A stretch of DNA of 43,999 nt. Source: an uncultured Dokdonia sp. (GTDB taxonomy: Bacteria > Bacteroidota > Bacteroidia > Flavobacteriales > Flavobacteriaceae). Of the stretch, positions 49 through 40,420 are shown piece after piece. The notes under the pieces are model-generated. The model did no database searches, was not told the DNA's origin, and was given only the letters and a program-made list of their open reading frames with translations. The position numbers and the translations under genes were made by a program. Where the stretch lies: the NCBI GenBank assembly GCA_913060645.1, contig CAJXSW010000011.1, positions 1 through 43,999 of the forward strand, in the 5' to 3' direction. Each line of letters starts with the position of its first letter. The first letter of the stretch is position 1.

Positions 49-1943
49 ATACAAAGGACTTTCAGAAATCACTTTTTGAAGAAATGAAAGGTCGTATTAA
101 AGAAGATGATTCGTCGGTACCTTATAAGCACAATGGTTTCTGGTATTACCGTCGTTTTGAGACGGGAAAAGACTATCCACTATATTGTAGAAAAGAAGCT
201 ACCTTGGATAGTGAAGAGATTATTGTATTTGATAATAATAAAATGGCAGAAGGGCATTCTTATTTTAGTCAAGCTAGTTATGCCGTATCTGAGGATAATA
301 TGATTGCTGCTTTTGGGATAGACACGGTAAGTAGAAGGCAATATACAATCAGGTTTAAAAATCTTAAGACTGGAGAAATTTATCCAGCTGAAATCAAAAA
401 CACCACTGGAGGCGCTGTTTGGTCAAATGATAATAAAACGGTTTATTATTCTAGAAAAGACGCAGAAACCCTGAGATCTAATCAAATATTTAAGCACACC
501 TTAGGAACAGATCCTAGCCAAGACGAACTTGTTTATCAAGAAAATGACGAGACGTTTTATACCTATGTTTTTAAATCTAAGTCTAAGGATTACATTATGA
601 TAGGTTGTGACAGTACGATGACGAGTGAATTTCGCTTTGCATCTGCAGCAGAAGGTACTACAGATTTTAAGGTTTTTCAAGAACGTACAAGAGGGCTGGA
701 GTACGCAGTATCTCATTATGACGATTCTTTTTATATACAGACTAATAAAGATAAGGCGACCAACTTTAAACTCATGAAAACGCCAGTATCTGCTACTGGA
801 ATGGAAAATTGGGTAGACATAATCCCTCATCGAGATGATACCTTGCTAGAAGATGTAGAGATTTTTAAGGATTTTCTTGTGGTAAGTGAGCGTAGCAATG
901 GTTTGAATAAGATACACATCAAGCGATGGGATAATTCAGAAAGCTATTATTTGCCTTTTGATAATGAAACATACGACGCTTATCCTACCACAAATATCGA
1001 TTTTGATACTCAGATTTTACGATATGCTTATAATGCGCTTAATACACCTGCGTCTGTTATAGATTTTGATATGGTCACTCAAGAAAAAGTGGTCCTTAAA
1101 GAGCAAGAGGTATTAGGCGGAAACTTTGATAAAGATAATTATAACATGGAGCGCATCTGGACAACAGCTCAAGATGGAGTTAAGGTTCCAGTATCTATAA
1201 TCTACCACAAAGACACACAACTAGATGGTACAGCTCCTTTGTTACAGTATGCCTATGGAAGTTACGGTAGTACTACAGATCCTTCTTTCTCAACAATAAG
1301 ATTATCTCTTTTAGATCGTGGTTTTATTTATGCCATCGCACACGTAAGAGGAGGTGAGTATTTAGGAAGAAAGTGGTATGAGGATGGAAAGTTGCTCAAG
1401 AAAAGAAATACGTTCACAGATTTTATTGATGTTTCAAAACATTTGATAAGTAACTCTTACACTTCGGCTAGTCATTTATATGCTTACGGAGGTTCGGCAG
1501 GAGGATTATTGATGGGTGCAATTGTAAACATGGCGCCAGAGCTTTATAATGGAATTATTGCGGCAGTCCCTTTTGTAGACGTTGTGACAACCATGCTTGA
1601 CGATACCATTCCGCTTACCACAGGTGAGTATGATGAGTGGGGCAATCCTAATGAAAAGGAGTCCTATGAGTATATGAAGAGCTACAGTCCTTATGATAAC
1701 GCTTTCGCGAAAGCGTACCCAAATATATTTGTTACCACAGGATACCATGATAGTCAAGTGCAATATTGGGAACCTGCAAAGTGGGTAGCGAGACTAAGAG
1801 AAACGAATCAAGCTGATACAAAAATCATGTTTCATTGTAATATGGATGCAGGTCATGGTGGTGCTTCTGGACGTTTTGAAGCATTAAAAGAAATCGCCGA
1901 AGATTATGCCTTTTTACTTGACTTAGAGTCTATTACTCAGTAA
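49..1943 (+). CDS. S9 family peptidase, oligopeptidase B-like (5' truncated)
   Basis: Serine oligopeptidase of the prolyl-oligopeptidase clan, expected to cleave short peptides, probably after basic residues if it is a true oligopeptidase B. The first Met in frame is at 84, but the open frame runs on upstream through family-like residues (..FEEMKGRIKEDDSSVPY) into the adapter, so the real N-terminus, perhaps 50 residues, is missing. The N-terminal two thirds fits the beta-propeller. The C-terminal alpha/beta-hydrolase domain shows the full triad: nucleophile in GGSAGG (Ser471 counted from Met84), Asp556 in GYHDSQV and His591 in AGHGG. A copy of the repeated palindrome encodes residues 540-544 (AFAKA). 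The family assignment is firm; the exact substrate is not. Confidence 0.9.
1699..1716. repeat. Iterated palindrome copy 1 (in S9 peptidase)
   Basis: Perfect 18-bp palindrome ACGCTTTCGCGAAAGCGT. It lies inside the S9 peptidase gene and is read as Ala-Phe-Ala-Lys-Ala, at a place where homologues also have an Ala/Lys-rich stretch before the conserved YPN. Confidence 0.9.
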
Positions 1944-2015
1944 GTGGGTAACACGCTGTTTATAACTGTATGATATTGAACTAGTGTAGAGGAAACACGT
2001 TCCATATTTTTATGT

Positions 2016-2023
2016 TACTTTTG
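2016..2023 (+). promoter_or_regulatory. Bacteroidota -7 element upstream of the capA-like gene
   Basis: TACTTTTG matches the Bacteroidota -7 consensus TAnnTTTG exactly and lies 53 nt before the ATG at 2077. No convincing TTG -33 box is visible at the expected spacing, so this is a candidate only. Confidence 0.4.
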
Positions 2024-2076
2024 CTCTGTTTTGCACGTCTGTTTTTTAGGATTGTGCAGCGCTTTAACCAAGATAT

Positions 2077-3117
2077 ATGAATAAGGATTTAAACGTGTAT
2101 GATAACGTGTTACAACTAGTAGGCAACACACCACTCATCAAGTTAAATAAAATTACAGAAGGTTTTGAAGGTCAGTTTTACGCAAAGGTAGAGGCTTTTA
2201 ACCCGGGACACTCATCAAAAGATCGTATTGCTCTTCACATTATAGAAGAGGCAGAACGTACAGGAGTTCTTAAACCTGGTGACACTATTATTGAAACTAC
2301 ATCTGGAAACACTGGATTTAGTATCGCAATGGTAAGTATTATTAAAGGGTATGAATGTATTCTTGCAGTAAGCTCAAAATCATCACCAGACAAGATTGAT
2401 GCTTTAAAAGCGATGGGAGCAAAGGTGTATGTATGTCCTGCAAATGTAAAGGCAGACGACCCGAGATCTTATTATAGTGTGGCAAAGCGTTTACATGAAG
2501 AAAATAAGGGTTCTGTATATATCAATCAGTATTTTAATGAGTTGAATATAGACGCTCACTTTAACACTACAGGACCAGAAATCTGGAATCAAACAGAAGG
2601 TAACATTACACACTTAATTGCTTGTAGTGGAACTGGAGGTACTATATCTGGTACTGCACGTTTTTTAAAGCAACAAAATCCAGCAATAAAAATTATAGGT
2701 ATAGATGCTTATGGATCTGTGATTCAAAAGTATCATCAAACCCGTGAGTTTGACGCAGCAGAAATTTATCCGTACCGTATAGAAGGGCTAGGGAAAAACT
2801 TAATACCCTCTGCAACAGATTTTGATGCAATAGATAAGTTTGAAAAAGTAAGTGATCAAGAGAGTGCTCACAGTGCGAGAGAAATTGCTACTACAGAAGG
2901 TCTTTTTGTAGGATATACAAGTGGTGCTGCTATTCAAGGGGTAAAACAACTTGCTGCGCAAGGGGAGTTTGACGAGAATAGCAAGGTGGTGGTTATTTTT
3001 CCAGATCACGGAAGTCGCTATATGAGTAAAGTGTTTTCTGATAAGTGGATGAATGATCAAGGTTTTTTTGATAGTCAAAATGAAGAGACTGTAGCAACTA
3101 TAGAATACATCAAATAA
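2077..3117 (+). CDS. capA: PLP-dependent cysteate synthase-like (cysteine synthase/CBS family)
   Basis: Fold-type II PLP enzyme of the cysteine synthase / cystathionine beta-synthase family, 346 residues without a CBS regulatory domain. Visible motifs are the PLP lysine in SSKDR (Lys48), the substrate loop TSGNTG (75-80), the phosphate-binding SGTGGT (184-189) and a late TSGAA. The next gene is an alpha-oxoamine synthase. This pairing matches the described capnine pathway, in which CapA makes L-cysteate from O-phosphoserine and sulfite and CapB acylates it. The symbol therefore rests on family plus neighbour; from sequence alone an ordinary O-acetylserine sulfhydrylase or CBS remains possible. 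It has its own terminator at 3143, so the two genes are probably separate transcripts. Confidence 0.72.
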
Positions 3118-3142
3118 ACGTCTAAAATATTACGTATATTTA

Positions 3143-3168
3143 AGCTCCTACCTATGTAGGAGCTTTTT
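3143..3168 (+). terminator. Intrinsic terminator after the capA-like gene
   Basis: Perfect 9-bp stem AGCTCCTAC / GTAGGAGCT with a 4-nt loop (CTAT), followed by a T run. It begins 26 nt after the stop codon. Confidence 0.8.
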
Positions 3169-3233: not shown

Positions 3234-3255
3234 CACCTGTTTTCAAAACAAGTAT

Positions 3256-5600: not shown

Positions 5601-5618
5601 ACGCTTTCGCGAAAGCGT
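5601..5618. repeat. Iterated palindrome copy 2 (intergenic)
   Basis: Perfect 18-bp palindrome ACGCTTTCGCGAAAGCGT between the start of the mscS-like gene and the stop of the EEP gene, both on the minus strand. It has no loop and no T run of its own, so a terminator role is unlikely. Confidence 0.9.
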
Positions 5619-11654: not shown

Positions 11655-11702
11655 AGTTACTATAAGCCTGTTAGACCTCTAATGTACATTAAAAACAAGG
11701 AC

Positions 11703-14700
11703 ATGAACAAATATTACCGTTTTCTTAACTTCTCAGTGGCCATTTTGCTTAGTAGTTGTGCGACTTATTCTCCTAAATATGCAGATGAGTCAAGCGAGCC
11801 TTCTCGTTTTGATAATAGTTCGCTTTCGCGAAAGCGTATACATAAAACCTTCTATCTTATAGGCGATGCAGGAGGAGATAAGGATGGTGGTAGCACTTAT
11901 GCACTTGATGCATTTAAGAGAGTGATAGACACTGCACAAACAGAAAACGATTATGCAATCTTTTTAGGTGACAATATTTATGATGCTGGACTTCCATCAA
12001 AGAATAATCCAGAAAGAGCCGAAGCTGAGCGCAGATTAAATATTCAAGTAGCGGCAGTCGAAAATTTTAAGGGTAAAACCATTTTTATTCCAGGAAACCA
12101 TGATTGGTATGCAGATGGCGTAGAAGGTGTAAAGCGTCAAGAGAAGTATATAGAAGATGCGCTAGATGATAAGGAAGCATTTCAACCTGAAAATGGATGT
12201 CCTATTGAAATGAAAAGCATAAGCGACTCTGTAGAGTTGATGATCATTGACACGCAGTGGTATCTAGAAGACTGGGACAAGCATCCTACAATAAATGATA
12301 ATTGCGATATTAGAAATAGAACTGATTTATTTTTAGAAATAGAAAATGAGTTCAAAAAGAATAACGAAAAGACAATACTTGTAGCAATGCACCACCCTAT
12401 GTATACAAATGGGATTCATGGTGGTAAATATGGTATAAGAAAGCAGTTATATCCTACACAAAGCAATCTGCCGCTTCCAGTACTTGCCTCTCTTGTCACT
12501 CAAGTAAGATCACAAGGTGGAGTGTCAATTCAAGATCGCTATAACAAGCAATATAATGAGTTAATGCAACGCATCTCTGTACTTGCGAGAGATACAGATA
12601 AAGTGATTTTTGCATCAGGTCACGAGCACAGTATACAGTATATAGAGCATGATGGTATAAAACAGATTGTGAGTGGAGCAGGAGCAAAGAACAGTGCCGC
12701 AGCTTTAGGAGACGATGGTTTGTTTTCTTACGGAGGTCAAGGATTTGCTATTCTGGACGTATATGAAGATGAGTCTTCATCTGTAAGATTTTATGCAGCA
12801 AATCAAGGAGAACCTACTTTACTTTATACAAAGGAAATTTTTGCTCCTCGCAAAGAAGTAAATTTAGATTCGCTACCAGATATATATCCAGAGACTGTAA
12901 TGGCTACGGTGTATGCTCAGAATAATACAGATGTGTCAGATGTACATGAGTCACTATGGGGAGATCATTATAGAGCTGTTTACGGAACTCCAGTAACGGC
13001 TAAAGTTGCTACGCTAGACACACTCATGGGCGGATTTACAGTTGACCGTAAAGGTGGTGGTCACCAGACAAGATCATTACGATTAAAAGATAAAGACGGA
13101 AGAGCTTATAATTTAAGAGCAGTGAGAAAAAGCGCCGTGCAGTTCTTGCAAAGTGTTGCTTTTAAAGAGGTTTTTGTTCAAGAAGAATTCAGAGATACAT
13201 TTACAGAGGATTTAATCTTAGATTTCTATACATCTGCACATCCATATGCTTCTCTTGCTGTGGCAGAGCTCTCTGATGCAGTGGGTATTTATCACACAAA
13301 TCCTAGCTTAATTTATGTTCCAAAACATGATGCATTAGGTAAGTATAATGCAGATTACGGTAATGAATTATATATTATAGAAGAACGCCCAGACGAAGAT
13401 TTTCTGGACGTTCCTTCTTTTGGAAATCCTGATAGTATTGATAGTACAGATGATCTTTATGAAAACTTACGTAAGGATGAGAAGTATCAAGTAGATGAAG
13501 ACTCCTATTTACGAGCACGTATTTTTGATATGCTTATAGGTGACTGGGATCGTCATGCAGACCAGTGGAGATGGGCACGTTTTGATAGTGATGGAAAGAA
13601 AATATACAAGCCTATTCCAAGAGATAGAGATCAGGTTTTTTCAAAATTTGATGGTGCTATATTAGGATTACTTAAAACATTAATTCCAGCGTCTAGACAG
13701 TTTCAAAATTATGATGGAGATCTAGAAAATGTAAAGTGGATCAACGAGGCAGGTATTAAGATGGATAGAGCGCTTACCAAGAATTCTGTAAAGAAGGACT
13801 GGATAGCACAAGCTCAATATATACAAGATAACCTCAGTGATGAAGATATCGCGAGAGCATTTACAAAATTGCCTCTTGAAGTTCAAGATGTAGGTGTAGA
13901 TGAGATTAAGAAAAGCCTTAAAGAACGTAGAGGTAATATCGTTGACATCGCAGGTGAATATTATGATTATCTGGCTTCGCTAGTAGTACTTACAGGAACA
14001 GATAAGGATGATCATTTTGAAATCACACGTAACGATAAGGAGACCAGAGTCCAGATATCAAGGATTAAAGATGGAGAAGTTCAAACTCCTTTTGTAGATC
14101 GCATTATAAACTCAGATGAGACTGGGGAGATATGGATTTACGGTCTTGATGATGATGATAGCTTTAAAGTAAGTGGAGAAGGAAAGTCGCCTATAAGAAT
14201 GAAAATTGTAGGAGGACAAAACAACGATATCTACGAGATAAAAGATGGTCGTCGCCTCAAGGTTTATGAGCATAAGACGCTTCCTAATACGATAAAAGAA
14301 AAAGGAGGAGCAAGTTTCAAAATGTCAAATATCTATTCCTTTAACACCTATGACCCTTTAAAGAAAAAGAGTTATGCAAATAATATTTTACCAGCCATAG
14401 GTTTTAATCCTGATGATGGATTCCTGATAGGAGTAAATGATGTGTTTACTACTAACGGTTTTAAGAATGATCCATTCAGCAGCAAGCACGTTCTTAATGG
14501 TACCTACTCATTTGCAACAGAATCACTCAGCTTAAAATATGAAGGAAATTTTGCAAACGCCTTTGGACAGTGGAATTTATTGATAGGAGGGAAGTTTACA
14601 AACGAAGCTTTTTCTCGTAACTTCTTTGGTTTTGGTAACGAGACTGTAAATAACGATGATGATTTAGGTCTTGACTTTAATAGAGTTCGTAATGGAGAAG

Positions 14701-15425
14701 TAGGCGCTCATATAGGAGTAGAGAGTGACAATACCTTTGGTAGTAGATTGCGATTTGTATTTAATTATGAGCGTATTGAAATTGAACCTACAGGTGGCCG
14801 AGTGATTGATGACGCTAGCTTATTTACACCAGATCGCAGTAATTTCTTTGGAGGGCAATCTTTTATAGGTGTAGAAGGAGCTTATACTTATGTAAGTGCA
14901 GATAACCAAGCTAACCCTACGAGAGGGATGGATTTTGCAACAGTAATAGGTGCAAAGCGCAATATAAGCGATGGTAGTAGAATGTATGCATATGTAAACC
15001 CTAAATTAGGGTTCTACAATGCACTATCTAAAAACAGAAAACTTGTCCTTAAAACACTTGTGCAAGCCCAAGTTCTTATAGGTGATGACTATGAGTTCTA
15101 TCAAGCCGCATCATTAGGTGCAAATTCTGGTTTGAGAGGATATAGATTTAATAGATTTACAGGAGAATCATCCCTAGCTGGGTCGGCAGATTTGAGATAT
15201 AGTTTTAATAGATTTTCTACAGGCTTAATTCCTATTCAGATAGGTGTTTTTGGTGGAGGAGATGTAGGTCGTGTTTGGCTTGATGGAGAAGATAGTGAGA
15301 AGTGGCACAATGACTTTGGTGGAGGTTTCTGGTTAAATATGGTAGATACTGTATCTGGCCAACTAGGAGCGTTTGCTGGTGAAGATGGTATGAGAATCGA
15401 TTTTAGATTTGGTGTAAGATTGTAA
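11703..15425 (+). CDS. Metallophosphoesterase - kinase-like - Omp85 barrel fusion (active-site intact)
   Basis: 1240 residues from ATG 11703; an in-frame ATG at 11682 would add 7 residues but spoils the signal peptide. A lipoprotein-type signal ends at LLSSC. A metallophosphoesterase domain of the purple-acid-phosphatase style has all five motifs: GDAGG (Asp55), GDNIY (Asp90), GNHDW (Asn132-His133-Asp134), MHHP (His230, His231) and GHEH (His307, His309). The middle (about 420-760) holds a Gly-rich GGGHQTRSLRL, an IGDWDRHADQW motif (about 612-622) and PRDRDQVFSKFDG, reminiscent of atypical kinases. From about 893 to the end it is a beta-barrel with the Omp85-type LRGYR motif (about 1144-1148). 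Predicted in the outer membrane. Its paralogue at 15616-19302 points towards it. Confidence 0.85.
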   Translation: MNKYYRFLNFSVAILLSSCATYSPKYADESSEPSRFDNSSLSRKRIHKTFYLIGDAGGDKDGGSTYALDAFKRVIDTAQTENDYAIFLGDNIYDAGLPSKNNPERAEAERRLNIQVAAVENFKGKTIFIPGNHDWYADGVEGVKRQEKYIEDALDDKEAFQPENGCPIEMKSISDSVELMIIDTQWYLEDWDKHPTINDNCDIRNRTDLFLEIENEFKKNNEKTILVAMHHPMYTNGIHGGKYGIRKQLYPTQSNLPLPVLASLVTQVRSQGGVSIQDRYNKQYNELMQRISVLARDTDKVIFASGHEHSIQYIEHDGIKQIVSGAGAKNSAAALGDDGLFSYGGQGFAILDVYEDESSSVRFYAANQGEPTLLYTKEIFAPRKEVNLDSLPDIYPETVMATVYAQNNTDVSDVHESLWGDHYRAVYGTPVTAKVATLDTLMGGFTVDRKGGGHQTRSLRLKDKDGRAYNLRAVRKSAVQFLQSVAFKEVFVQEEFRDTFTEDLILDFYTSAHPYASLAVAELSDAVGIYHTNPSLIYVPKHDALGKYNADYGNELYIIEERPDEDFLDVPSFGNPDSIDSTDDLYENLRKDEKYQVDEDSYLRARIFDMLIGDWDRHADQWRWARFDSDGKKIYKPIPRDRDQVFSKFDGAILGLLKTLIPASRQFQNYDGDLENVKWINEAGIKMDRALTKNSVKKDWIAQAQYIQDNLSDEDIARAFTKLPLEVQDVGVDEIKKSLKERRGNIVDIAGEYYDYLASLVVLTGTDKDDHFEITRNDKETRVQISRIKDGEVQTPFVDRIINSDETGEIWIYGLDDDDSFKVSGEGKSPIRMKIVGGQNNDIYEIKDGRRLKVYEHKTLPNTIKEKGGASFKMSNIYSFNTYDPLKKKSYANNILPAIGFNPDDGFLIGVNDVFTTNGFKNDPFSSKHVLNGTYSFATESLSLKYEGNFANAFGQWNLLIGGKFTNEAFSRNFFGFGNETVNNDDDLGLDFNRVRNGEVGAHIGVESDNTFGSRLRFVFNYERIEIEPTGGRVIDDASLFTPDRSNFFGGQSFIGVEGAYTYVSADNQANPTRGMDFATVIGAKRNISDGSRMYAYVNPKLGFYNALSKNRKLVLKTLVQAQVLIGDDYEFYQAASLGANSGLRGYRFNRFTGESSLAGSADLRYSFNRFSTGLIPIQIGVFGGGDVGRVWLDGEDSEKWHNDFGGGFWLNMVDTVSGQLGAFAGEDGMRIDFRFGVRL
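11821..11836. repeat. Iterated palindrome copy 3 (in Omp85 fusion gene)
   Basis: Perfect 16-bp CGCTTTCGCGAAAGCG close to the 5' end of the gene, between the signal peptide and the first catalytic motif. This is the only intact coding copy read in a different frame (Ser-Leu-Ser-Arg-Lys-Arg). Confidence 0.88.
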
Positions 15426-15576: not shown

Positions 15577-15594
15577 ACGCTTTCGCGAAAGCGT
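15577..15594. repeat. Iterated palindrome copy 4 (intergenic)
   Basis: Perfect 18-bp palindrome in the gap between the two convergent Omp85 fusion genes. It sits downstream of both, so it cannot be a promoter operator for either. Confidence 0.9.
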
Positions 15595-19883: not shown

Positions 19884-19903
19884 TACGCTTTCGCGAAAGC
19901 GTA
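19884..19903. repeat. Iterated palindrome copy 5 (intergenic)
   Basis: Perfect 20-bp palindrome TACGCTTTCGCGAAAGCGTA between two minus-strand genes. Confidence 0.9.
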
Positions 19904-22687: not shown

Positions 22688-22709
22688 TTACGCTTTCGCG
22701 AAAGCGTAA
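22688..22709. repeat. Iterated palindrome copy 6 (intergenic)
   Basis: Perfect 22-bp palindrome (the 16-bp unit with TTA and TAA added at the ends) in the divergent gap between the ybjQ-like gene and the membrane HTH gene. Confidence 0.9.
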
Positions 22710-26394: not shown

Positions 26395-26418
26395 TTTACG
26401 CTTTCGCGAAAGCGTAAA
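26395..26418. repeat. Iterated palindrome copy 7 (longest, intergenic)
   Basis: Perfect 24-bp palindrome, the longest copy, adding TTTA and TAAA to the 16-bp unit. It lies between the pirin start and the GreA/B-like stop, both on the minus strand. Confidence 0.92.
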
Positions 26419-26934: not shown

Positions 26935-28674
26935 TTATTTTTCGTTCTTCATTAAGGCTATACTGCGCTCAGACCAGCTTATAGTGCGCGGTCCAAAACA
27001 CTCTAAAATTGCATCTACACCTATCACACTTCCCTTAGATAGTCTGCCCAATACCACTAGTGGCACAAAACTTTTACCCTCGGGTACTTCTACATAACCA
27101 TAATCGTCTGTGCGTATGCCTAGATCAGTATGTTTAGGCTCAATCATTTCATAACTGAGCAAGTTTTTAATAATTGGTGTATCTACGGTGACAAGTTGTG
27201 GTGAGTCAAGTACGGCGTTAAGCATTACGTCTACGGTAACCTTATTATCATCAGATTTAAGTTGCCAGCCTCCGTTTACACAAGTGATTTCTGGATTATT
27301 TACAAAACCAAGATCTAACAATCCTGCTTTTGCAAGCGCGATAAGCTGTTGTATGCTCTCAACAGGTGGACCGTAAGAATAACGTTTTGATGCTTCGTCT
27401 AGCGCAATAACTTCGGCAACTACATCATCTGCGATTGCTGGATATGAGAACTCTCTGTAGATTGTAGGCTGGCATTGTCGCCATACTTGACCTATAAAAT
27501 AGTCGAGGCTAACCGGTGCTTCTCCTACTGCCATTTCCACTTGCTGTTGCATCATTTGCAAGACAGGTTTTTGATGGGATAGGAGTAGGGGATGCGCTAG
27601 TGATTTATTGTTGAGGTAATTTATCGTCAAGAAATAAACTTCTTCTTCAGTAAGATCGTGTTGTATGGCTTTGTCTCCTAATTTTAAAAACAAATGAGCC
27701 ACAACAGCTGCCATTGCTTCTAGTAGAAAGTATTGATCTTTTGCAGGGTGATTGCCGCAGGCGCCTTTATGTATCGCTTTCGCGAAAGCGTTTATAGCAT
27801 CATCATTTGGCATAAACCACTCATCTACCGCTTTATTTATAGGTTTTGGCACCATAGGAAGTCCGTCTAAGGAAAAGGGAACAAACCGCTGTGGATGGTT
27901 TTCTCCAGCGTGAAAATCAACTTCTTTGGTATCATTATCAAGTATTTCAAAATGCGCGCCTTGCTGCAAGGTGAGCGCACGTATCTGATCAATCATAGCG
28001 AGTCCAAAACCTCTAAAAGCAACTACGCTCTCTGAGTTAATGTTTGCATCTATAATTTTTTCTACGGGATAGGCTTCTGTAAATAGTAGGGCGTTATCAG
28101 TTTGTGCAACGTGATCTTTCCATTCTTGCAGCTGCTCTGAAAGCTCCGTATCCTGATGCCCAATGGTAAGTACTACTTCATCTATTGCGTTGATTGATGT
28201 GTTTTCTGTAATTGCTGTGAATTCTGGTGCGATATAGGTGAGTTTGGTAACAGTTTCCTCAACAATATTTAATAAATCAAACCCCTTAAGCGCACTAGCA
28301 ATATTCTCAAAACGAGCATTAAGGTATGTTCCCATCTTTGCCCGTGGAGGAAACTGATCTGAATGCGTCGCAGGAGGGTTTTGTTGTTCTTCTGGTAACC
28401 ACTCCGTATATGAGGGAAATGCAGGGATGACATCATCACCTAATTTCATTTCTGGTCTGCCAGGCAAGTCTTGTAAAGCACGCTCAGTAATATTAAGCCA
28501 GTTGCTCGCTACTTGCTCAGGATTCCACACCCAGCCTGCACCTAGATATTTAAAAGGTTCAAATAAAGTGACTTTTATTTGAGCTTCTGGAGCGTAATTG
28601 TAGAGCGCAGTAAAAAGGCTTTCAAGAGCAAAAAGTCCTCTGGGACCTCCTCCTATTATGGCGTAGTGTTTCAT
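26935..28674 (-). CDS. FAD/NAD(P)-binding protein of the FAD-NAD(P)-binding family (PF13454 type)
   Basis: 579 residues. The N-terminal Rossmann motif IGGGPRGLFALESL (about 7-20) binds FAD. The rest follows the pattern of the HI0933/PF13454-type proteins found as unassigned oxidoreductases in Bacteroidota (EPFKYLGAGWVW, VAFRGFGLAMIDQ). No substrate motif is recognisable. Palindrome copy 8 encodes INAFAKAIHKG in its middle. It leads a two-gene operon with the GreA/B-like factor. Confidence 0.8.
   Translation of the reverse strand: MKHYAIIGGGPRGLFALESLFTALYNYAPEAQIKVTLFEPFKYLGAGWVWNPEQVASNWLNITERALQDLPGRPEMKLGDDVIPAFPSYTEWLPEEQQNPPATHSDQFPPRAKMGTYLNARFENIASALKGFDLLNIVEETVTKLTYIAPEFTAITENTSINAIDEVVLTIGHQDTELSEQLQEWKDHVAQTDNALLFTEAYPVEKIIDANINSESVVAFRGFGLAMIDQIRALTLQQGAHFEILDNDTKEVDFHAGENHPQRFVPFSLDGLPMVPKPINKAVDEWFMPNDDAINAFAKAIHKGACGNHPAKDQYFLLEAMAAVVAHLFLKLGDKAIQHDLTEEEVYFLTINYLNNKSLAHPLLLSHQKPVLQMMQQQVEMAVGEAPVSLDYFIGQVWRQCQPTIYREFSYPAIADDVVAEVIALDEASKRYSYGPPVESIQQLIALAKAGLLDLGFVNNPEITCVNGGWQLKSDDNKVTVDVMLNAVLDSPQLVTVDTPIIKNLLSYEMIEPKHTDLGIRTDDYGYVEVPEGKSFVPLVVLGRLSKGSVIGVDAILECFGPRTISWSERSIALMKNEK
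27775..27790. repeat. Iterated palindrome copy 8 (in FAD protein gene)
   Basis: Perfect 16-bp CGCTTTCGCGAAAGCG, read on the minus strand as Ala-Phe-Ala-Lys-Ala. Confidence 0.88.
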
Positions 28675-30905: not shown

Positions 30906-30927
30906 TTACGCTTTCGCGAAAGCGTAA
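30906..30927. repeat. Iterated palindrome copy 9 (intergenic)
   Basis: Perfect 22-bp palindrome. The 12 nt before it (TGTTGAGGTGTT) are identical to the 12 nt before the 16-bp unit of copy 10. Confidence 0.9.
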
Positions 30928-31147: not shown

Positions 31148-31160
31148 TTTCGCTAAAGCG
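31148..31160. repeat. Decayed palindrome copy
   Basis: TTTCGCTAAAGCG matches the right part of the iterated motif with a single G-to-T change in the core. Confidence 0.5.
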
Positions 31161-33059: not shown

Positions 33060-33521
33060 TTAGTTAAAAGCGAGTTCCATTTTAATGTTTGCGCGCTTGT
33101 AGACAACATCTTCTTCAAGAGGAATTTCTATAAAATCCCATTTCTTATAGATATGAACGGCATTTTCTAGCTTACGGTGTGAGTATAGAATGAGTTTGTT
33201 GAGGTGTTGCGCTTTCGCGAAAGCGATACAATGTGCAATCAATTGCTGTCCAATACCCATCCCTCTAGCCGAAGGTGAAACTGCCATTTTTGTAAGTTCT
33301 AACACACCAGTATATCCAGTAGGCATAAGCGCTACCGTACCTAGAATTTGATCATCTTTTGATGCAAAGAAGATAAAACCTCCTTTGTTAATGATATATT
33401 CTTCGGGATTACTCAACACTTTGAGATCATAAGGCTCTACGTAGAAAAAGGCCTCGAGCCATTCTATATTAAGAGTTTTAAAATCTGCAGCAAATTGAGA
33501 GTTATATGGAATGATGTTCAC
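33060..33521 (-). CDS. GNAT family N-acetyltransferase
   Basis: 153 residues from a GTG start. The acetyl-CoA binding motif A is SPSARGMGIGQQLIAHC (the RxxGxG pattern). The gene overlaps the last 20 nt of hutG, so it is the fourth member of the hut cluster by position. Its substrate is unknown and it is not a standard histidine-degradation enzyme. Palindrome copy 10 encodes IAFAKAQ right after motif A. Confidence 0.86.
   Translation of the reverse strand: MNIIPYNSQFAADFKTLNIEWLEAFFYVEPYDLKVLSNPEEYIINKGGFIFFASKDDQILGTVALMPTGYTGVLELTKMAVSPSARGMGIGQQLIAHCIAFAKAQHLNKLILYSHRKLENAVHIYKKWDFIEIPLEEDVVYKRANIKMELAFN
33210..33225. repeat. Iterated palindrome copy 10 (in GNAT gene)
   Basis: Perfect 16-bp CGCTTTCGCGAAAGCG, read as Ala-Phe-Ala-Lys-Ala on the minus strand. 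Confidence 0.88.
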
Positions 33522-34519: not shown

Positions 34520-35098
34520 CTATAATATTTTTACACTAGCTAGCTCTTCAATGCATTGCTCGCGTATGTTCCAGATGTCATCTAGTGAATATGCTAGCTC
34601 GTCTCTTTTTATCCAGTCCTCCAGAACAGATTTGTGATACTCCATCTTAAAATCTTCTATTTGATCTGTATCGATAGTAGTTTGCATGAGCACAGCCTCT
34701 CTCCAGCTCATATTATGAGTACCTGCAAAGGTGTAATCATACACCTCATCATCGTATGCTAAGACAGTGTGTGCCTCTAGCATGTACGGTAAATTATACT
34801 TTTCGAGTATATTTCCTATGCCAGGAGTATTTTTATTATCCATCGCATAAATTACTAGTTCTAGCTGTAAGCCATAGATTGCGTGCTCATCTGTTAGTGT
34901 CTTAAGCGTTGCATGCTTGGTACTGCAAGTACCTCGCCCCTCAGTAATGATGTTTCCAAAATCAAGTGGGTTATCAATACGTCCATAAGGCAATTTATGT
35001 ACAGCGCGTATGGCGTCATAAAATGTGTATATTCCATTTTCTATAAAAATATCGCTTACGGTGTTTCCTGCTGTGATGTTAAAGTTAGGTATGATCAT
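34520..35098 (-). CDS. Transglutaminase-like protein inside the hut operon
   Basis: 192 residues, no signal peptide. The residues fit a transglutaminase-like cysteine protease fold: GRGTCSTKHATL with Cys58, EAHTVLAY with His110 and VYDYT with Asp121, in the order and spacing of the Cys-His-Asp triad. The start codon overlaps the hutI stop by 4 nt, and hutG follows after 4 nt. It is therefore translationally coupled to histidine degradation, yet no hut step needs such an enzyme. Function open. Confidence 0.72.
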   Translation of the reverse strand: MIIPNFNITAGNTVSDIFIENGIYTFYDAIRAVHKLPYGRIDNPLDFGNIITEGRGTCSTKHATLKTLTDEHAIYGLQLELVIYAMDNKNTPGIGNILEKYNLPYMLEAHTVLAYDDEVYDYTFAGTHNMSWREAVLMQTTIDTDQIEDFKMEYHKSVLEDWIKRDELAYSLDDIWNIREQCIEELASVKIL

Positions 35099-36324
35099 AA
35101 AATGCCTCCATTTACGATAATAGTATCTATCTGGCTTTCGCCAAAATGATAAGGTATCGCATTATAAGAAGGTAGGGGTTTTGTGATGATTAAATTAGCT
35201 TTTTTTCCTTTGGTAATACTTCCAGTTTCTGCTGCTACATCCATAGCAAAAGCGCCATTAATGGTGGCTGCTACAATAGCCTCTGCTGGTGTCATTCTTA
35301 AATTTATACAAGCTTGAGAGACTATAAAATTCATAGATGAACTAGGGGATGATCCCGGATTATAATCTGTTGCAATCGCAAGTGGTAATCCAGCATCTAT
35401 AATACTACGTGCTGGAGTATATGGTATATTCAAAAAGAAAGAACAGCCAGGCAATGCAACGGGTATGGTACTTGAACCCTGTAAGACTGATATATCAGCT
35501 TTTGTTAATTCTTCTAGATGATCTACAGAAAGTGCATTTAGCGCTACTGCTTTTTGGATTCCGCCTATACTATTAAATTGATTGACGTGAACTTTAGCCT
35601 TAAGACCATGAGCAGCTCCTGCCGTTACAATAGTATCCATTTCCTCAACCGTAAAATAACCCGTCTCACAGAAAATATCTATAAAATCACATAAGTCTGC
35701 TTTCGCGAAAGCAGGAATCATTTCCTCTACAATTTCTTTAATATATCCTTCTCTATTGGTTTTATAATTTTCAGGAATAGCATGTGCAGCAAGTAATGTA
35801 GCCTTTACAGGTATATTTACTTTTTTACGCAATCGTTGTATGACCTTGAGCATTTTAAGCTCTGCATCTTTTGTAAGACCATAACCGGTTTTAATTTCAA
35901 TAGCACCTGTACCGCTTGCAATAGCAGTATTAAGTCTTACTAGTGCATCTTCATAAAGATCATCTTCACTCATCTCACGTAAGGTTCTTGCGCTATTCAT
36001 TATTCCGCCGCCTTTGGCAGCAATTTCTTGATAAGTAAGACCTTTAATACGATCTACAAACTCATCTTCACGAGTTGCTGCATACACAAGATGCGTGTGA
36101 GAGTCACACCACATAGGGAGCACTATTTGTCCGGTGGCATCTATTACCTCTTCTACAGCAATAGGGTGAAGGTCTTCCATAAGACCATATTCGTAAATAA
36201 GATCTTCATCAATAACGAGGTATGCATTCTCGAGATAAGGCATTGCCTCCATATTTTTTCCAGAGAGGGGAGCTGTAAAATCTCCTGTTACTAGAAGCTG
36301 GTGGATATTTGTGATTAATTTCAT
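35095..36324 (-). CDS. hutI: Imidazolonepropionase
   Basis: Amidohydrolase superfamily, 409 residues, the usual HutI length. The metal site is CDSHTHLVYAA (His76, His78), with KTGYGL, VHVNQF and ATDYNPGSSPSSSMNF further on, as in HutI. It opens the imidazolone ring to N-formimino-L-glutamate. It is the first gene of the hutI - transglutaminase-like - hutG - GNAT run. Palindrome copy 11 encodes PAFAKAD near its middle. Confidence 0.93.
   Translation of the reverse strand: MKLITNIHQLLVTGDFTAPLSGKNMEAMPYLENAYLVIDEDLIYEYGLMEDLHPIAVEEVIDATGQIVLPMWCDSHTHLVYAATREDEFVDRIKGLTYQEIAAKGGGIMNSARTLREMSEDDLYEDALVRLNTAIASGTGAIEIKTGYGLTKDAELKMLKVIQRLRKKVNIPVKATLLAAHAIPENYKTNREGYIKEIVEEMIPAFAKADLCDFIDIFCETGYFTVEEMDTIVTAGAAHGLKAKVHVNQFNSIGGIQKAVALNALSVDHLEELTKADISVLQGSSTIPVALPGCSFFLNIPYTPARSIIDAGLPLAIATDYNPGSSPSSSMNFIVSQACINLRMTPAEAIVAATINGAFAMDVAAETGSITKGKKANLIITKPLPSYNAIPYHFGESQIDTIIVNGGIL
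35697..35714. repeat. Iterated palindrome copy 11 (in hutI, changed arms)
   Basis: Perfect 18-bp palindrome CTGCTTTCGCGAAAGCAG. The usual outer CG pair is replaced by paired changes (CT/AG), so symmetry is kept although the sequence differs. Read as Ala-Phe-Ala-Lys-Ala. Confidence 0.85.
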
Positions 36325-36514: not shown

Positions 36515-37690
36515 ATGAGTAAATCACATAAAGGCCTTAATACCATTTGTACGCATACAGGAGAAATTAAAGACGAGCAGTTTCAAGGAGCTGTATCTCC
36601 TATCTACTTATCATCTTCTTATGCCTTTATGGATGTAGATGTAAAGCGCTACCCTCGCTACTTTAATACTCCTAATCAAGAAGGATTAAGCAAGAAAATT
36701 GCTGCCCTTGAGAAGACAGAGGCTGGGATGATCTTTGGTAGTGGTATGGCGGCAGTAAGTACTGCATTGCTGGCTTTTTTGAGAAGTGGCGACCATGTTG
36801 TGCTTCAAGAAACATTATATGGAGGTACATATAACCTCGTAGTTGAGGAATTTGAGAAGTACGGTATCACATATTCATTTACTGAGGATTTGAGTGAGGC
36901 CGCTTTCGCGAAAGCGATAACTCCACATACTAAAGTGATTTACATTGAGACACCTTCTAATCCACTTATGAAAGTGACAGATATGAAGATGGTTGCTACA
37001 CTTGCCAAAAAACACGGCATTGTGACCATGATAGATAATACATTTGCCTCTCCAGTAAATCAAAATCCAGCAGATTTTGGGATTGATATTATACTTCACT
37101 CTGCAACAAAATATATGGGAGGGCACAGTGACATCTGTGCAGGAGCAATTGCTGCGAGCCAAGAACATATGGATCGCATCTGGAATCTAGCAAAAAATCT
37201 AGGAGGAAGTCTAAGTGACCTTACCGTATGGATGCTTGAGCGTAGCATGAAAACCATGGCACTACGTGTAAAAGCTCAAAATAGAAATGCAAAGAAAATA
37301 GCCAAATGGCTTGATAAGAAAGACGAGATAAGTCGGGTGTACTATCCAGGATTAAAGTCTCATCCAGATTATAAACTGGCCAAAGAGCAGATGAGCGGTT
37401 TTGGAGGGATGATGTCCTTCGAGTTAGTATCACACATTGATGCCGAAGATTTTCAGAAAGCCTTACAACTTATCAAACCTTCTATGAGTCTTGCAGGTGT
37501 AGAGAGTACGATGTTATGTCCAGCACAAACTTCGCACTCATTACTAGGAGAAGAAGAGCGAGCAAAACAGGGTATCGCAGATGGCTTAATTCGTTTTTCT
37601 GTAGGAATAGAGGAGAAGGCAGACTTGATGGAAGATATAGACCAAGCACTTAAAGCTGTTTTGAAAAAAACAGTATTAGTCGCAGATTAA
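36515..37690 (+). CDS. Cys/Met metabolism PLP enzyme (trans-sulfuration family)
   Basis: 391 residues, fold-type I PLP enzyme. Motifs are YPRYFNTPN, the FGSGMAAVS phosphate loop, YIETPSNP, the IDNTFASP region and the PLP lysine in HSATKYMGGHSD (Lys199). Possible activities are cystathionine gamma-synthase, cystathionine gamma-lyase or methionine gamma-lyase; the sequence alone does not decide. It is 130 nt upstream of bshB1, a thiol-metabolism gene, which would fit supply or turnover of cysteine. Palindrome copy 12 encodes residues 129-135 (AAFAKAI) just before the conserved YIETPSNP. Confidence 0.85.
   Translation: MSKSHKGLNTICTHTGEIKDEQFQGAVSPIYLSSSYAFMDVDVKRYPRYFNTPNQEGLSKKIAALEKTEAGMIFGSGMAAVSTALLAFLRSGDHVVLQETLYGGTYNLVVEEFEKYGITYSFTEDLSEAAFAKAITPHTKVIYIETPSNPLMKVTDMKMVATLAKKHGIVTMIDNTFASPVNQNPADFGIDIILHSATKYMGGHSDICAGAIAASQEHMDRIWNLAKNLGGSLSDLTVWMLERSMKTMALRVKAQNRNAKKIAKWLDKKDEISRVYYPGLKSHPDYKLAKEQMSGFGGMMSFELVSHIDAEDFQKALQLIKPSMSLAGVESTMLCPAQTSHSLLGEEERAKQGIADGLIRFSVGIEEKADLMEDIDQALKAVLKKTVLVAD
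36901..36916. repeat. Iterated palindrome copy 12 (in Cys/Met PLP enzyme gene)
   Basis: Perfect 16-bp CGCTTTCGCGAAAGCG, read as Ala-Phe-Ala-Lys-Ala on the plus strand. Confidence 0.88.
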
Positions 37691-37763
37691 AACTCGATTG
37701 CGCTTAACTTTTTATTTGTTCTTAAAAGTCGGTAATTAAATAAAGGGAAATGTCATTCACACG

Positions 37764-37771
37764 TAAGTTTG
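37764..37771 (+). promoter_or_regulatory. -7 element upstream of bshB1
   Basis: TAAGTTTG is an exact TAnnTTTG match, 49 nt before the bshB1 ATG. No good -33 box. Confidence 0.38.
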
Positions 37772-37820
37772 ATGACTATATAACAATAATCCAAAAGATA
37801 CTCGTACAGCGAGCATACAT

Positions 37821-38537
37821 ATGAAACTAGATATACTTGCCATAGGAGCACACCCAGATGATGTAGAATTAGGCTGTGGTGCAACCATAGCAAAGGAGAT
37901 AGCAAATGGAAAGAAAGTAGGAATACTTGATCTCACAAGAGGCGAACTAGGAACTCGAGGTAGTGCAGAGATACGTGATGAGGAAGCTGCAGCTGCAGCA
38001 AAGATTCTAGGTGTAGCTGTACGTGAGAATATTGCACTTGCAGATGGTTTCTTTGTAAATGATAAAGAGAGCCAACTCAAAATCATAGAAGTAATAAGAA
38101 AGTATCAACCAGAAATGGTGCTCTGTAACGCTATAACAGATAGGCATATAGACCACGGAAAGGGAAGTAAACTTGCCAGTGATGCTTGCTTTTTGAGCGG
38201 GCTGAAAAAGATTGAAACCATTGTAGACGGAAAGTCACAAGAAAAATGGCGCCCTAAGACTGTGTATCACTATATACAATGGCAGCACATCGAGCCAGAT
38301 GTAGTGGTAGATGTAAGTGGGTTTATAGATAAAAAATGTGATGCCGTCTTTGCATACAGCTCACAGTTTCACGATCCAAATAATAAAGATGGTGATACAC
38401 CTATTTCTAGCGAAACCTTTAAAGAGAGTATTAATTATCGCTCTAGAGACCTAGGACGTCTCATAGGTACAGAATATGGAGAAGGTTTTACCGTAGAGCG
38501 TTATCCAGCGGTAGATAGCTTATTTGATTTAAAATAA
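37821..38537 (+). CDS. bshB1: Bacillithiol biosynthesis deacetylase BshB1
   Basis: 238 residues, PIG-L/LmbE zinc deacetylase family. The zinc and catalytic motifs GAHPDDVELG (His11-Pro12-Asp13-Asp14) and DRHIDHGKG are present. The C-terminal FHDPN.. and SRDLGRLIGTEYGEGF blocks are typical of BshB1. The enzyme removes acetate from GlcNAc-malate to give GlcN-malate in bacillithiol synthesis; some homologues also act on bacillithiol conjugates. The interrupted secreted-protein gene starts 1 nt after the stop. Confidence 0.93.
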   Translation: MKLDILAIGAHPDDVELGCGATIAKEIANGKKVGILDLTRGELGTRGSAEIRDEEAAAAAKILGVAVRENIALADGFFVNDKESQLKIIEVIRKYQPEMVLCNAITDRHIDHGKGSKLASDACFLSGLKKIETIVDGKSQEKWRPKTVYHYIQWQHIEPDVVVDVSGFIDKKCDAVFAYSSQFHDPNNKDGDTPISSETFKESINYRSRDLGRLIGTEYGEGFTVERYPAVDSLFDLK

Positions 38538-38538
38538 A

Positions 38539-38895
38539 ATGGGGATGATACAACGGATTGTAATGATTTGTTTTTTAACGTGCGGAGTGGTTGCGATAGG
38601 TCAAACGTCTTCGTTTCATTTAGATAGTATACCCACTTCGATACCTTTCAAACACACGCTAAATATATCTAGCTTAGACAACCTTAAGAAGTTACCATCT
38701 TAACTATTTAAGAGATATGATATGTCAGGAAATCTCATTGTTGATGAAAAGTTTGCGTCTAGTAAGCAGAAAGCCTATACCATGAGGGTTTATCCTATTA
38801 AATCAAATGATGAGATGAGAGTTGTTATCCCAGATACCACCACAACGCAATACTTAAGAATATATGGAATAGATAAGACTACATTAAACAACTAG
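38539..38895 (+). pseudogene. Small secreted-protein gene interrupted by an in-frame TAA
   Basis: From ATG 38539 an in-frame reading gives a signal-peptide-like start (IVMICFLTCGVVAIGQ) and runs to a TAA at codon 55 (38701-38703). The same frame then continues without another stop (LFKRYDMSGNLIVDEKF.. to GIDKTTLNN) up to TAG 38893-38895, 118 codons in all. The continuation looks like ordinary protein, so a single nonsense mutation in a short secreted-protein gene is the simplest reading. An alternative is two small genes, with a restart at ATG 38722. No family recognised. It begins 1 nt after bshB1 and is followed by a terminator. Confidence 0.6.
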
Positions 38896-38918
38896 GGAAT
38901 AAATATTCTGAGTTATTA

Positions 38919-38945
38919 AAAAGCCACCTACGGGTGGCTTTTTAA
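38919..38945 (+). terminator. Terminator after the bshB1 operon
   Basis: Stem AAAAGCCACC / GGTGGCTTTT with loop TACG, followed by T residues. Confidence 0.85.
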
Positions 38946-38991
38946 TGTCTAGTATGTAAAGAATGGAATAGGCGCTACTTATTTACATAAC

Positions 38992-39023
38992 AAAAAAAAG
39001 TCTTCAGATTTCTCTGAAGACTT
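38992..39023 (-). terminator. Terminator after tRNA-His
   Basis: Stem AAGTCTTCAGA / TCTGAAGACTT with a 4-nt loop. On the minus strand it is followed by eight T and lies 8 nt after the tRNA 3' end. Confidence 0.87.
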
Positions 39024-39030
39024 GAATAAG

Positions 39031-39105
39031 GGTGGAAGACCGGGTTCGAACCGGCGACCTCTGGTACCACAAACCAGCGCTCTAACCAACTGAGCTACAA
39101 CCACC
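39031..39105 (-). tRNA. tRNA-His (GTG)
   Basis: The minus strand folds as a cloverleaf: D stem GCTC/GAGC, anticodon stem CTGGT/ACCAG with loop TTGTGGT (anticodon GTG), T stem GCCGG/CCGGT with loop TTCGAAC. The encoded extra G at -1 (base 39105) faces the discriminator C (base 39031), the tRNA-His identity feature. CCA is not encoded. The acceptor halves GTGGTTG and CTTCCAC pair at 1-4 and 7 but place U opposite U at pairs 5-68 and 6-67, which is odd. Confidence 0.93.
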
Positions 39106-39162
39106 ATTTTAATTGCGAGTGCAAAGATAATTAATATTAGAAGATGTGCAACTTTTTCTAAT

Positions 39163-39195
39163 AAAAAAAGGAGTGAAATTTTTCACTCCTTTTTC
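39163..39195 (-). terminator. Terminator after the M28 peptidase gene
   Basis: Stem AAAAAGGAGTGAAA / TTCACTCCTTTTT with a short loop. On the minus strand it ends in a T run. It separates the peptidase from tRNA-His. Confidence 0.82.
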
Positions 39196-39255
39196 AAAGT
39201 GTTGATTATTAGGTGAATTTACTTAAATAAAACACATAATAATTTTTAAAATAAT

Positions 39256-40329
39256 TTATTCTTCTTTCTCCGCTTTGTCTACTACAGGTCTATCCTTACG
39301 ATTTGCAAGTTCCCAAGCAGTTGCAAAAACTAGTTTTGTGCGCTTTTCAAGTAAAGGGTAGTTAATCTTATCTGGTGTATCACCTATCTTGTGATAATCT
39401 TCATGTGTTCCATTAAAGTAAAAAATGATAGGCACATTCTTCTTTGCAAAGTTGTAGTGATCTGAGCGGTAGTAAAAACGGTTAGGCTCATTTTCTACGT
39501 TATAGCGATAATCAAGATTAATATCAAAATACTTTGCATTTACTGCAGATGATACATTATGTAAATCTGTACTTAATTTATCTGACCCTATTAAATAAAC
39601 GTAGTTATTGTCTTCTAAGTGGGCATCATCATTACGACCTATCATATCGATGTTAAGGTCTGCGATTGTATTTGCTAGTGGGTATACTGGATTTTCAGAG
39701 TAGAATCTAGACCCGTATAAGCCTTTCTCTTCTCCTGTAACGTGTAAAAAGAGGATAGAGCGCTTAGGTCCTTTTCCGTCTTTTACAGCTTGTTTAAAAG
39801 CTTCTGCAATCTCAAGTAAAGCTACAGTACCAGATCCATCATCATCTGCCCCATTAAAGACATTACCTTTTGAGTCCATTCCTACGTGGTCCAGGTGTGC
39901 AGAGAGTACAAGCACTTCCTCAGGCTTTTCTGATCCTTCTATAAATGCTAGTATGTTTTCTGAGTCGTTTAGATCACTTCCTTTCCTAAAAAAGGTGTTA
40001 GGTACAATCTGGTAATAATCTCCATTATTTCCTGGAGCCACTTCTAGTTGCTTGTAATAGTTTACAAGGTATGCAGCCGCTTTCTTTTGCCCTGGATCTC
40101 CAGTGTTACGACCTTCAAAATCATCACCTGCAAATACGTAAAGCATGTCTTGTAGCTCATTTGCAGTAATAGTATTAGTGTATTTACGCACATCATTCTC
40201 ATTGCTTTCAAGAGAAGTAACATCTATAAGTACAGGTTCTGAAGGAGCAGCAGGTGCTACTACTTTTTTTGATTCGTTACAGGAAAGGGCAATGAGTCCC
40301 AATCCCATGAGCGCAATATATTTTTTCAT
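39256..40329 (-). CDS. M28 family metallopeptidase lipoprotein
   Basis: 357 residues. A lipoprotein signal ends at ALSC (Cys17). The M28 zinc ligands are visible in order: LSAHLDHVG, NGADDDGSG, GEEKGLYGS, NIDMIGRND and a later RSDHYNF / HEDYH. The domain is expected to release N-terminal residues from peptides outside the cytoplasm. A Thr/Asn-rich prodomain of about 60 residues precedes the protease-associated part. Single gene between tRNA-His and dnaN. Confidence 0.92.
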   Translation of the reverse strand: MKKYIALMGLGLIALSCNESKKVVAPAAPSEPVLIDVTSLESNENDVRKYTNTITANELQDMLYVFAGDDFEGRNTGDPGQKKAAAYLVNYYKQLEVAPGNNGDYYQIVPNTFFRKGSDLNDSENILAFIEGSEKPEEVLVLSAHLDHVGMDSKGNVFNGADDDGSGTVALLEIAEAFKQAVKDGKGPKRSILFLHVTGEEKGLYGSRFYSENPVYPLANTIADLNIDMIGRNDDAHLEDNNYVYLIGSDKLSTDLHNVSSAVNAKYFDINLDYRYNVENEPNRFYYRSDHYNFAKKNVPIIFYFNGTHEDYHKIGDTPDKINYPLLEKRTKLVFATAWELANRKDRPVVDKAEKEE

Positions 40330-40406
40330 TTATAAGGAATTGTTTATTCTGATAAAAGTACTGAATTCAATTGGATAAAATATGAGATAGCGTAGTGTGT
40401 TTTTTT

Positions 40407-40420
40407 GCTTTCGCGAAAGC
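40407..40420. repeat. Iterated palindrome copy 13 (intergenic, short arms)
   Basis: Perfect 14-bp GCTTTCGCGAAAGC; the right arm continues as GCGTAA but the left arm is a T run. It lies between the M28 peptidase start and the dnaN stop. Confidence 0.82.

Follow-up and report, generated by a model that had tools for sequence, protein, structure and literature searches.

A long palindrome repeated throughout the genomes of three groups of marine flavobacteria, probably a mark of self DNA

The palindrome in the Dokdonia window

The stretch of DNA analysed here, called the window, comprises 43,999 nt of a contig (CAJXSW010000011.1) from an uncultured Dokdonia sp. of the family Flavobacteriaceae. 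It carries 14 exact copies of a 10-bp palindrome, TTTCGCGAAA, where 100 dinucleotide shuffles give a mean of 0.03 and a maximum of 1, which confirms the repetition reported in an initial annotation made from the letters alone. The perfect palindrome extends to 14–24 bp in 13 of the 14 copies, and the 13 coordinates listed in that annotation are the outer ends of these palindromes. Two further copies had been described as decayed: the one at 31148 indeed has a one-mismatch core, TTTCGCTAAA, whereas the one at 42097 has an exact core and has lost only its right arm. Seven copies lie in predicted genes (uncurated calls from greedy open reading frames) and seven between genes. The gaps between copies, 1203–6219 bp with a mean of 3107 bp and a coefficient of variation (CV) of 0.42, agree with the spacing of about 1–6 kb first noted. 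The copies are the following.

1699–1716, unstranded, 18-bp palindrome in the S9 peptidase gene 84–1943, peptide NAFAKAY
5601–5618, unstranded, 18-bp palindrome, intergenic
11821–11836, unstranded, 16-bp palindrome in the metallophosphatase gene 11682–15425, peptide LSRKR
15577–15594, unstranded, 18-bp palindrome, intergenic, between convergent genes
19884–19903, unstranded, 20-bp palindrome, intergenic
22688–22709, unstranded, 22-bp palindrome, intergenic, between divergent genes
26395–26418, unstranded, 24-bp palindrome, intergenic
27775–27790, unstranded, 16-bp palindrome in the FAD-NAD(P)-binding protein gene 26935–28674, AFAKA frame
30906–30927, unstranded, 22-bp palindrome, intergenic, between divergent genes
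31148–31157, unstranded, near-miss copy with one mismatch and right arm GCG
33210–33225, unstranded, 16-bp palindrome in the GNAT acetyltransferase gene 33060–33521, AFAKA frame
35697–35714, unstranded, 18-bp palindrome with variant arms CTGC/GCAG, in the amidohydrolase gene 35095–36324
36901–36916, unstranded, 16-bp palindrome in the Cys/Met-metabolism PLP enzyme gene 36515–37690; genome G190 has the same site
40407–40420, unstranded, 14-bp palindrome, intergenic
42097–42106, unstranded, exact 10-bp core with the left arm only, in the gene 41756–43450, FRES frame

Among palindromes of its length, the 12-mer CTTTCGCGAAAG is the most over-represented in the window, with 13 copies against 0.002 from composition. 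In the genome to which the window belongs (3.11 Mb in 219 contigs, 89% complete), TTTCGCGAAA occurs 932 times, or once per 3.3 kb, and the reversed control 10 times. When 1.04 Mb of DNA from the genus Dokdonia is simulated with a second-order Markov model, one copy results where the real DNA has 334. The genome-wide count, which the initial annotation had proposed to set against a Markov expectation, thus lies far above it, and the description of the motif as a highly iterated palindrome (HIP) in the sense of the cyanobacterial HIP1, with its large excess over composition, is borne out. Chance or composition as the origin is ruled out by the shuffles, the composition expectation and the Markov simulation. 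The window also holds a tRNA-His gene (anticodon GTG) at 39030–39104 on the minus strand.

Anatomy of the site

The consensus, TACGCTTTCGCGAAAGCGTA, has an invariant 10-bp core, conserved CGC/GCG arms and a 5′ flank of ∼20 bp rich in G and T on each strand. At 338 TTCGCGAA sites in the 1.04 Mb, the core bases are conserved at ∼100%, and the arm frequencies read outward are C 0.89, G 0.90 and C 0.83, then A 0.59, T 0.66 and T 0.59. Near-misses are few. For the 10-mer, 334 exact occurrences stand beside 51 with one mismatch, a number near the 43 of the Markov simulation; for the 14-mer the figures are 255 and 28, and those of up to 20 shuffled palindromes average 0.05 and 0.1. The 3.3-Mb genome G249 has 206 exact and 36 one-mismatch cores in the DNA surveyed, and 28 of the 36 retain a GC arm and are probably real sites. 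By the formula of Treangen and colleagues, as it appears in passages of PMC2397512, the ratio of exact to one-mismatch cores in G249 gives a rough 2Nes of ∼5.4, against ∼4 for the DNA uptake sequence (DUS). Arm losses in this genome are independent, and both GC arms are lost at none of 205 sites.

On each strand, keto bases are enriched in the 20 nt 5′ of the site, with a fraction of 0.65 compared with 0.51–0.54 farther out and a C content of 0.06–0.08. This skew is found alike at genic, convergent and divergent sites, and recurs in G242 (0.68) and G190 (0.60); it was looked for around six other palindromes and at 81 Chi sites of E. coli and was found at none. The flanks are T-rich before and A-rich after the site, with no positive correlation between the left and the right flank (r −0.18). 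With core, 3-bp arms and ∼20 bp of keto-rich flank on either side, the signature is ∼50 bp wide. It points to a sequence-specific recogniser that acts on double-stranded DNA genome-wide.

Placement and spacing

Sites occur in, before, after and between unrelated genes, which rules out a single regulon, as the initial annotation had argued. Apart from 5 of the 334 sites left unclassed, 172 are intergenic, in the 10% of the DNA that is non-coding, and 157 are genic, a density between genes 8- to tenfold that within genes. All three frames are used by the genic sites (AFAKA 78, FRES 39, LSRK 40), and the G249 sites divide into 103 genic and 103 intergenic ones. In intergenic gaps of at least 40 bp, 28 sites fall in 22.9 kb of divergent, 25 in 17.0 kb of convergent and 119 in 54.0 kb of tandem spacers.

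Spacing is even. The CV of the gaps in four 200-kb stretches is 0.53, 0.51, 0.55 and 0.65, compared with ∼1.0 in a null model that keeps the genic/intergenic split, and in each stretch none of 2000 simulations reaches so low a value. Gaps shorter than 1 kb make up 3–11% of the real gaps and 28–31% of those in the null. Over 30 stretches of 20 kb from the G249 chromosome (600 kb of 3.29 Mb), density is uniform at 3–9 copies per stretch (variance/mean 0.31), and neither a terminus gap nor a regional bias was found in them.

Conservation and origin of the sites

Sites were compared among G000, G251, G252 and G254, the last three being 90–93% identical to the window, and against G249, which is 76% identical; the counts pool overlapping genome pairs and drop sites with unalignable flanks and sites present in the subject only. 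The core is kept in 340 of 351 alignable comparisons among the four genomes and in 75 of 96 against G249. No insertion or deletion of at least 8 bp occurs at the compared sites, and smaller gaps occur in four G249 comparisons. In the close comparisons, core identity is 0.998 at genic and 0.995 at intergenic sites versus 0.931 and 0.851 at 16–40 nt outward, and the wobble positions of the core are identical in 324 of 324 cases versus 0.853 in the flanks. Against G249, wobble identity is 0.81 in the core and 0.53 in the flank. Selection at fixed sites in close relatives, a point that the initial annotation had left to comparison, is thereby supported. Coding bias is ruled out by the use of all three frames together with the frozen wobble bases.

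Site 1703 recurs in 14 of the 15 other members of the genus with which it was compared, and also in G190; it was lost by substitution in G261 (AFEKA). For site 11824 the count is 11 of 12 other members, and the site persists even at 61–64% protein identity. The S9 peptidase reads DNAFAKAYP or DNAFAKAFP in Dokdonia and G190, DQVTVQNYP in Leeuwenhoekiella and DQVIAQSYP in G242, with no insertion or deletion: ∼18 bp have been overwritten in place by the mark. Dokdonia genic sites with an aligned homologue are shared in two of eight cases with G190 and in none of three with G242; in the reverse direction, at a looser cut, one of eight G190 sites and none of four G242 sites are shared with Dokdonia. 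The sites are held by selection at the DNA level and have arisen through substitution in place.

Genomes that carry the palindrome

The 14-mer GCTTTCGCGAAAGC is present in 53 of 249 genomes of the family, and its reversed control in none. Five are rich (G000 705, G206 857, G010 578, G242 664 and G190 408 copies), and the remaining 48 carry 1–17 copies each. The aminotransferase of the window shares 98% identity with the one from an uncultured Dokdonia isolate; this isolate and a second one have 905 and 827 copies, exactly as G263 and G262 of the window's genus do, and this genus therefore is or includes Dokdonia. All 18 of its genomes are rich, with 369–905 copies; G253, G256 and G258 are incomplete (76–85%). 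A larger genome does not bring more copies, 903 being found in the 5.5-Mb G250 and 899 in G249. Nonlabens xiamenensis has 553 copies and Leeuwenhoekiella polynyae nine. In 296 genomes of the order and 395 of the phylum (overlapping samples), no further genome exceeds six, and the Bacteroidota sampled outside Dokdonia, Nonlabens and a third genus have 0–19. For the 10-mer, 22 rich genomes have 481–1195 copies (reversed control 6–23) and five low-copy genomes 23–34 (reversed control 10–21). The same long palindrome is therefore common to three groups of marine bacteria, at hundreds to about a thousand copies per genome.

A one-gene tree places Dokdonia in one clade, Nonlabens in another and G190 beside Leeuwenhoekiella, and requires at least two changes. 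From their place beside N. xiamenensis, G010 and G242 are probably Nonlabens. Quick trees of the S9 peptidase and ComEC leave the position of G190 unsettled, near Leeuwenhoekiella or near Dokdonia. Since the single-gene trees disagree on G190, one origin with losses and several origins are both compatible with them.

Foreign DNA and low-copy genera

Five gaps longer than 7.5 kb lack the motif, and ten proteins from four of them were scanned, the 8.2-kb gap of G249 lying outside the scan. The nine proteins from the three gaps longer than 9.5 kb, in G251, G252 and G254, include a reverse transcriptase with PRTase-CE, an Eco57I-type methylase and a GmrSD endonuclease, and we read these gaps as defence islands. 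Their defence-type genes lie in the following regions.

L049: 12004–19738, motif-free gap with defence-type genes
L071: 18124–19812, motif-free gap with defence-type genes
L055: 14902–16005, motif-free gap with defence-type genes

A 12.4-kb motif-free gap of G249 (L081 from 7753) holds an open reading frame of 4126 aa with SprB repeats in its first 1000 aa. The palindrome is also absent from the 35 kb of Nonlabens phage P12024S. This phage strongly avoids CGCG, with nine occurrences against 37 expected from composition and no TCGCGA against 3.8.

Copies are clustered in ten low-copy genomes (G078, G215, G087, G012, G201, G160, G101, G559, G552 and G051). All 16 copies of the Ulvibacter genome G552 fall within one 78-kb stretch (C3: 32331–110029) and 12 of the 17 copies of G051 within 38 kb (C6: 1640–39803); these clusters may be islands or, in the case of G051, contamination introduced by binning. 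The coordinates of the copies are identical in G552 and G076, which appear to be one genome. A spacing of 933 bp recurs in G101, G078, G215 and G087. Conserved ribosomal relics proved the wrong explanation for it, as the genes read as TolC/CusA/CopA/Fur types; the copies of these four genomes and of G201 and G012 lie in apparent metal-efflux genes (CusA/TolC/CopA/Fur-like, translations judged by eye). Such copies are likely DNA transferred from motif-rich hosts. Five low-copy genomes (G281, G412, G510, G380 and the Leeuwenhoekiella genome G553) have copies that are scattered or far apart, so that transfer is not the sole possible account. An alternate palindrome was not seen in low-copy genera, in stretches that are mostly the motif-bearing regions.

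A site in comEC

The core occupies one codon position of comEC in all 12 Dokdonia-genus genomes compared, in G190 and, with an altered left arm, in N. xiamenensis, that is in 14 of 16 motif-rich genomes; at that codon it is absent from G010, G242 and four motif-poor genomes. The gene came to attention through coordinates beside the listed copies, not through a gene survey. ComEC of G190 is 35% identical to that of G249 and 32% to that of N. xiamenensis. The marked codon adjoins an arginine found in all 20 ComEC sequences, and because of this neighbour convergence at the codon is possible. Riemerella, which its authors place in the Flavobacteriaceae, is naturally transformable according to passages of PMC8459023, and its transformation needs ComEC, DprA, ComF and RecA together with four proteins without known homologues in other machinery.

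A proposed mark for uptake or recombination

The palindrome is probably a genome-wide self-mark by which these bacteria recognise, take up or organise their own DNA. As a tentative first choice, held at somewhat under an even chance and by analogy with DUS, we propose a palindromic uptake or recombination sequence. A sequence-specific DNA-binding protein would recognise the ∼50-bp site; a bacteroidotal uptake or recombination complex would prefer DNA that bears it, so that incoming kin DNA would have perfect copies; and recombination of such DNA would repair defective copies and seed new ones about every 3 kb. The outcome would be even spacing, copies in tolerant positions and none in newly acquired DNA. 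We infer that a binding protein exists and that its role lies in the uptake or recombination of DNA, not in the folding of the chromosome.

An uptake or recombination mark accounts for even spacing, absence from new DNA, multi-base gain in place with few intermediates, sharing across genera, and clusters. Excess, even spacing, genic and intergenic placement, in-place origin and conservation above the flanks are what DUS and the uptake signal sequence (USS) show. In the passages of PMC2397512 concerned, neisserial DUS have 97% identity versus ∼85% around them, a spacing like that of conversion fragments and a bias to the core genome, with none in recently acquired genes, and many recent DUS are argued to arise by multi-base gain with few intermediates; PMC1939737 describes USS spacing as even. 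In its boldest form, which is held more tentatively still, the proposal would make the palindrome the first palindromic DUS and the first self-DNA mark of the Bacteroidota, read by a flavobacterial uptake receptor as a ∼50-bp symmetric site, with the three genera as a transformation club.

Several points weigh against uptake. Known DUS and USS are non-palindromic (PMC1939737, in the part consulted), whereas core and arms form a perfect palindrome here. The one-mismatch excess that the same source ties to gradual accumulation is missing (51 versus 43 simulated). It gives 947 one-mismatch versus 438 exact copies for the Pasteurellaceae uptake sequence and 1830 versus 5648 for HIP1, so that the scarce near-misses of G249 make the motif HIP1-like rather than USS-like in this respect. 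PMC7811141 describes the USS distribution as uneven in one passage and as relatively even in a second. In Neisseria, divergence is higher close to DUS (PMC2397512, in part), and wobble divergence within 250 bp of the sites here shows only a weak dip of 1.5–1.8 standard deviations, which is not used as evidence. Absence from recently acquired DNA holds for the three gaps and the one phage; among 80 of 120 virus stretches examined, virus-catalogue contigs bear copies with similar arms, and three of these have a match to a head protease, a tape measure with integrase, or a baseplate (ten proteins scanned). ComEC was found in 25 of 25 genomes, motif-poor ones included, and so has no discriminating value. 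Under conditions that made Riemerella columbina competent, Flavobacterium johnsoniae was not (PMC7965970, in part), and neither Dokdonia nor Nonlabens is known to be competent.

Other explanations

The main alternative, which we consider somewhat unlikely, is an abundant nucleoid or chromosome-organising protein that binds core and arms as a dimer and touches the flanks, selection keeping one site per ∼3-kb domain. A palindromic core with independent half-site arms suits a dimer, and strong selection on each site suits the few near-misses; even spacing, uniform density over the G249 stretches and flanks that are symmetric and keto-rich at genic, convergent and divergent sites fit as well. Such a protein would account more readily than an uptake mark for the palindrome and its symmetric 50-bp signature, and no less well for the scarcity of near-misses. 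Karlin, as told in a passage of PMC1939737, took the even spacing of USS to point to replication, repair or compaction. Over the 30 stretches of G249, the motif is neither confined to nor excluded from one region of the chromosome; this argues against a role like that of Noc or MatP but leaves room for a protein that organises the chromosome in general. No candidate binding protein turned up, though no profile search for one was made. Many genera of the family lack the motif, site-free stretches of 10–12 kb are tolerated, and larger genomes do not have more copies.

The methylation, Chi and hairpin readings are weaker than both. A bidirectional Chi-like site, at which a nuclease-helicase of AddAB or RecBCD type would read the palindrome from either side and RecA would load on the keto-rich strand 3′-ended there, is quite unlikely. 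Density is comparable (81 Chi in 350 kb of E. coli MG1655), and in Dokdonia, G242 and G190 the side rich in G and T is, on both strands, that of the strand inferred to be 3′-ended at a Chi-type stop. Known Chi sites, however, are short, non-palindromic and strand-biased; instead of an asymmetric octamer-like site a palindrome is found, its core and arms of 16 bp are far longer, and E. coli Chi has no local skew (keto 0.52 in the upstream 20 nt). HIP1-style methylation, in which a solitary methyltransferase would modify CGCG or TCGCGA and mismatch repair would ratchet the sequence up, is less likely again, although HIP1 is the nearest look-alike and has the closer near-miss ratio. According to parts of PMC4390886, alternate cyanobacterial HIPs are accompanied by a matching methyltransferase, and some HIP1-rich genomes lack a CGATCG enzyme. 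In a survey of PF00145 and PF01555, outside which other types fall (Eco57I, found in one motif-free gap, is an example), PF00145 is missing from 10 of 16 motif-rich genomes and PF01555 passes the cut-off in only three; eight have neither over the cut-off, among them G251 with a sub-threshold PF01555 match. Outside TTCGCGAA, TCGCGA shows no excess (90 of the 428 copies in the 1.04 Mb versus ∼121 by composition, or 5.1 per 44 kb), and conservation spans 16 bp plus flanks. The methylated TCGCGA core suggested in the initial annotation is thus unsupported. Least likely is a REP-like (repetitive extragenic palindromic) mobile hairpin or a bidirectional terminator, which a perfect inverted repeat that is denser between genes might suggest. 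An extragenic element is at odds with the genic half of the copies (103 of 206 in G249), which use all frames, and in-place substitution without insertion among alignable sites rules out a mobile insert. A hairpin or terminator is ruled out by the lack of covariation at the first three arm positions, by flanks T-rich before and A-rich after the site, the reverse of a terminator, and by divergent gaps about as dense as convergent ones. At arm position 4, complementary non-consensus pairs are slightly more frequent than expected (30 versus 19, orthologues included).

Comparison with known systems

In the open-access literature, none of the matches listed has the motif itself as its subject, or Dokdonia or Nonlabens with palindromes as a topic, and no paper was found that links ‘highly iterated palindrome’ with flavobacteria; PMC4390886 has no mention of flavobacter, dokdonia, krokinobacter or bacteroid. 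The core and the 14-mer are simple enough for direct testing in culture, and the motif may serve as a tracer, as clusters of copies in other genera probably flag DNA that has passed through Dokdonia- or Nonlabens-like hosts. To our knowledge, genome-wide DNA marks this strong are known in few lineages, with HIP1 in cyanobacteria and DUS or USS in two proteobacterial families. A palindromic mark in marine flavobacteria offers a clean second system for deciding between uptake, chromosome folding and repair as the process that maintains such marks.

Chi of E. coli (GCTGGTGG) resembles the motif in density per kb, whereas the motif is palindromic and long, cannot be strand-biased and has a flank skew that E. 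coli Chi lacks. REP elements are likewise dispersed inverted repeats; unlike them, half of the copies here are genic and no insertion is seen. The 18-nt palindrome of Caldithrix abyssi, as described in parts of PMC5317091, is also dispersed, unexplained and preferentially intergenic, but has 38 exact copies, coding overlaps that its authors all doubt, and a strand-specific centre.

HIP1 (GCGATCGC) and the alternate HIPs (Elhai 2015, PMC4390886, in part) are perfect palindromes with hundreds to thousands of copies and a lineage-patchy distribution. HIP1 shares with the motif few near-misses and a function not agreed upon; the palindrome here is twice as long, has extended keto-rich flanks, a spacing of ∼3 kb and a host in the Bacteroidota, and no methyltransferase of the two families tested is common to motif-rich genomes. 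Compared with DUS of Neisseria and USS of Pasteurellaceae, the motif is palindromic and has far fewer near-misses, and four of the proteins essential for transformation in Riemerella lack homologues in known machinery (PMC8459023, in part). The likenesses, seen here from sequence alone, are ∼1000 copies, even spacing, in-place origin, conservation of the site above its surroundings and absence from the new DNA examined. USS have an extended flanking preference, and so does the palindrome of Dokdonia.

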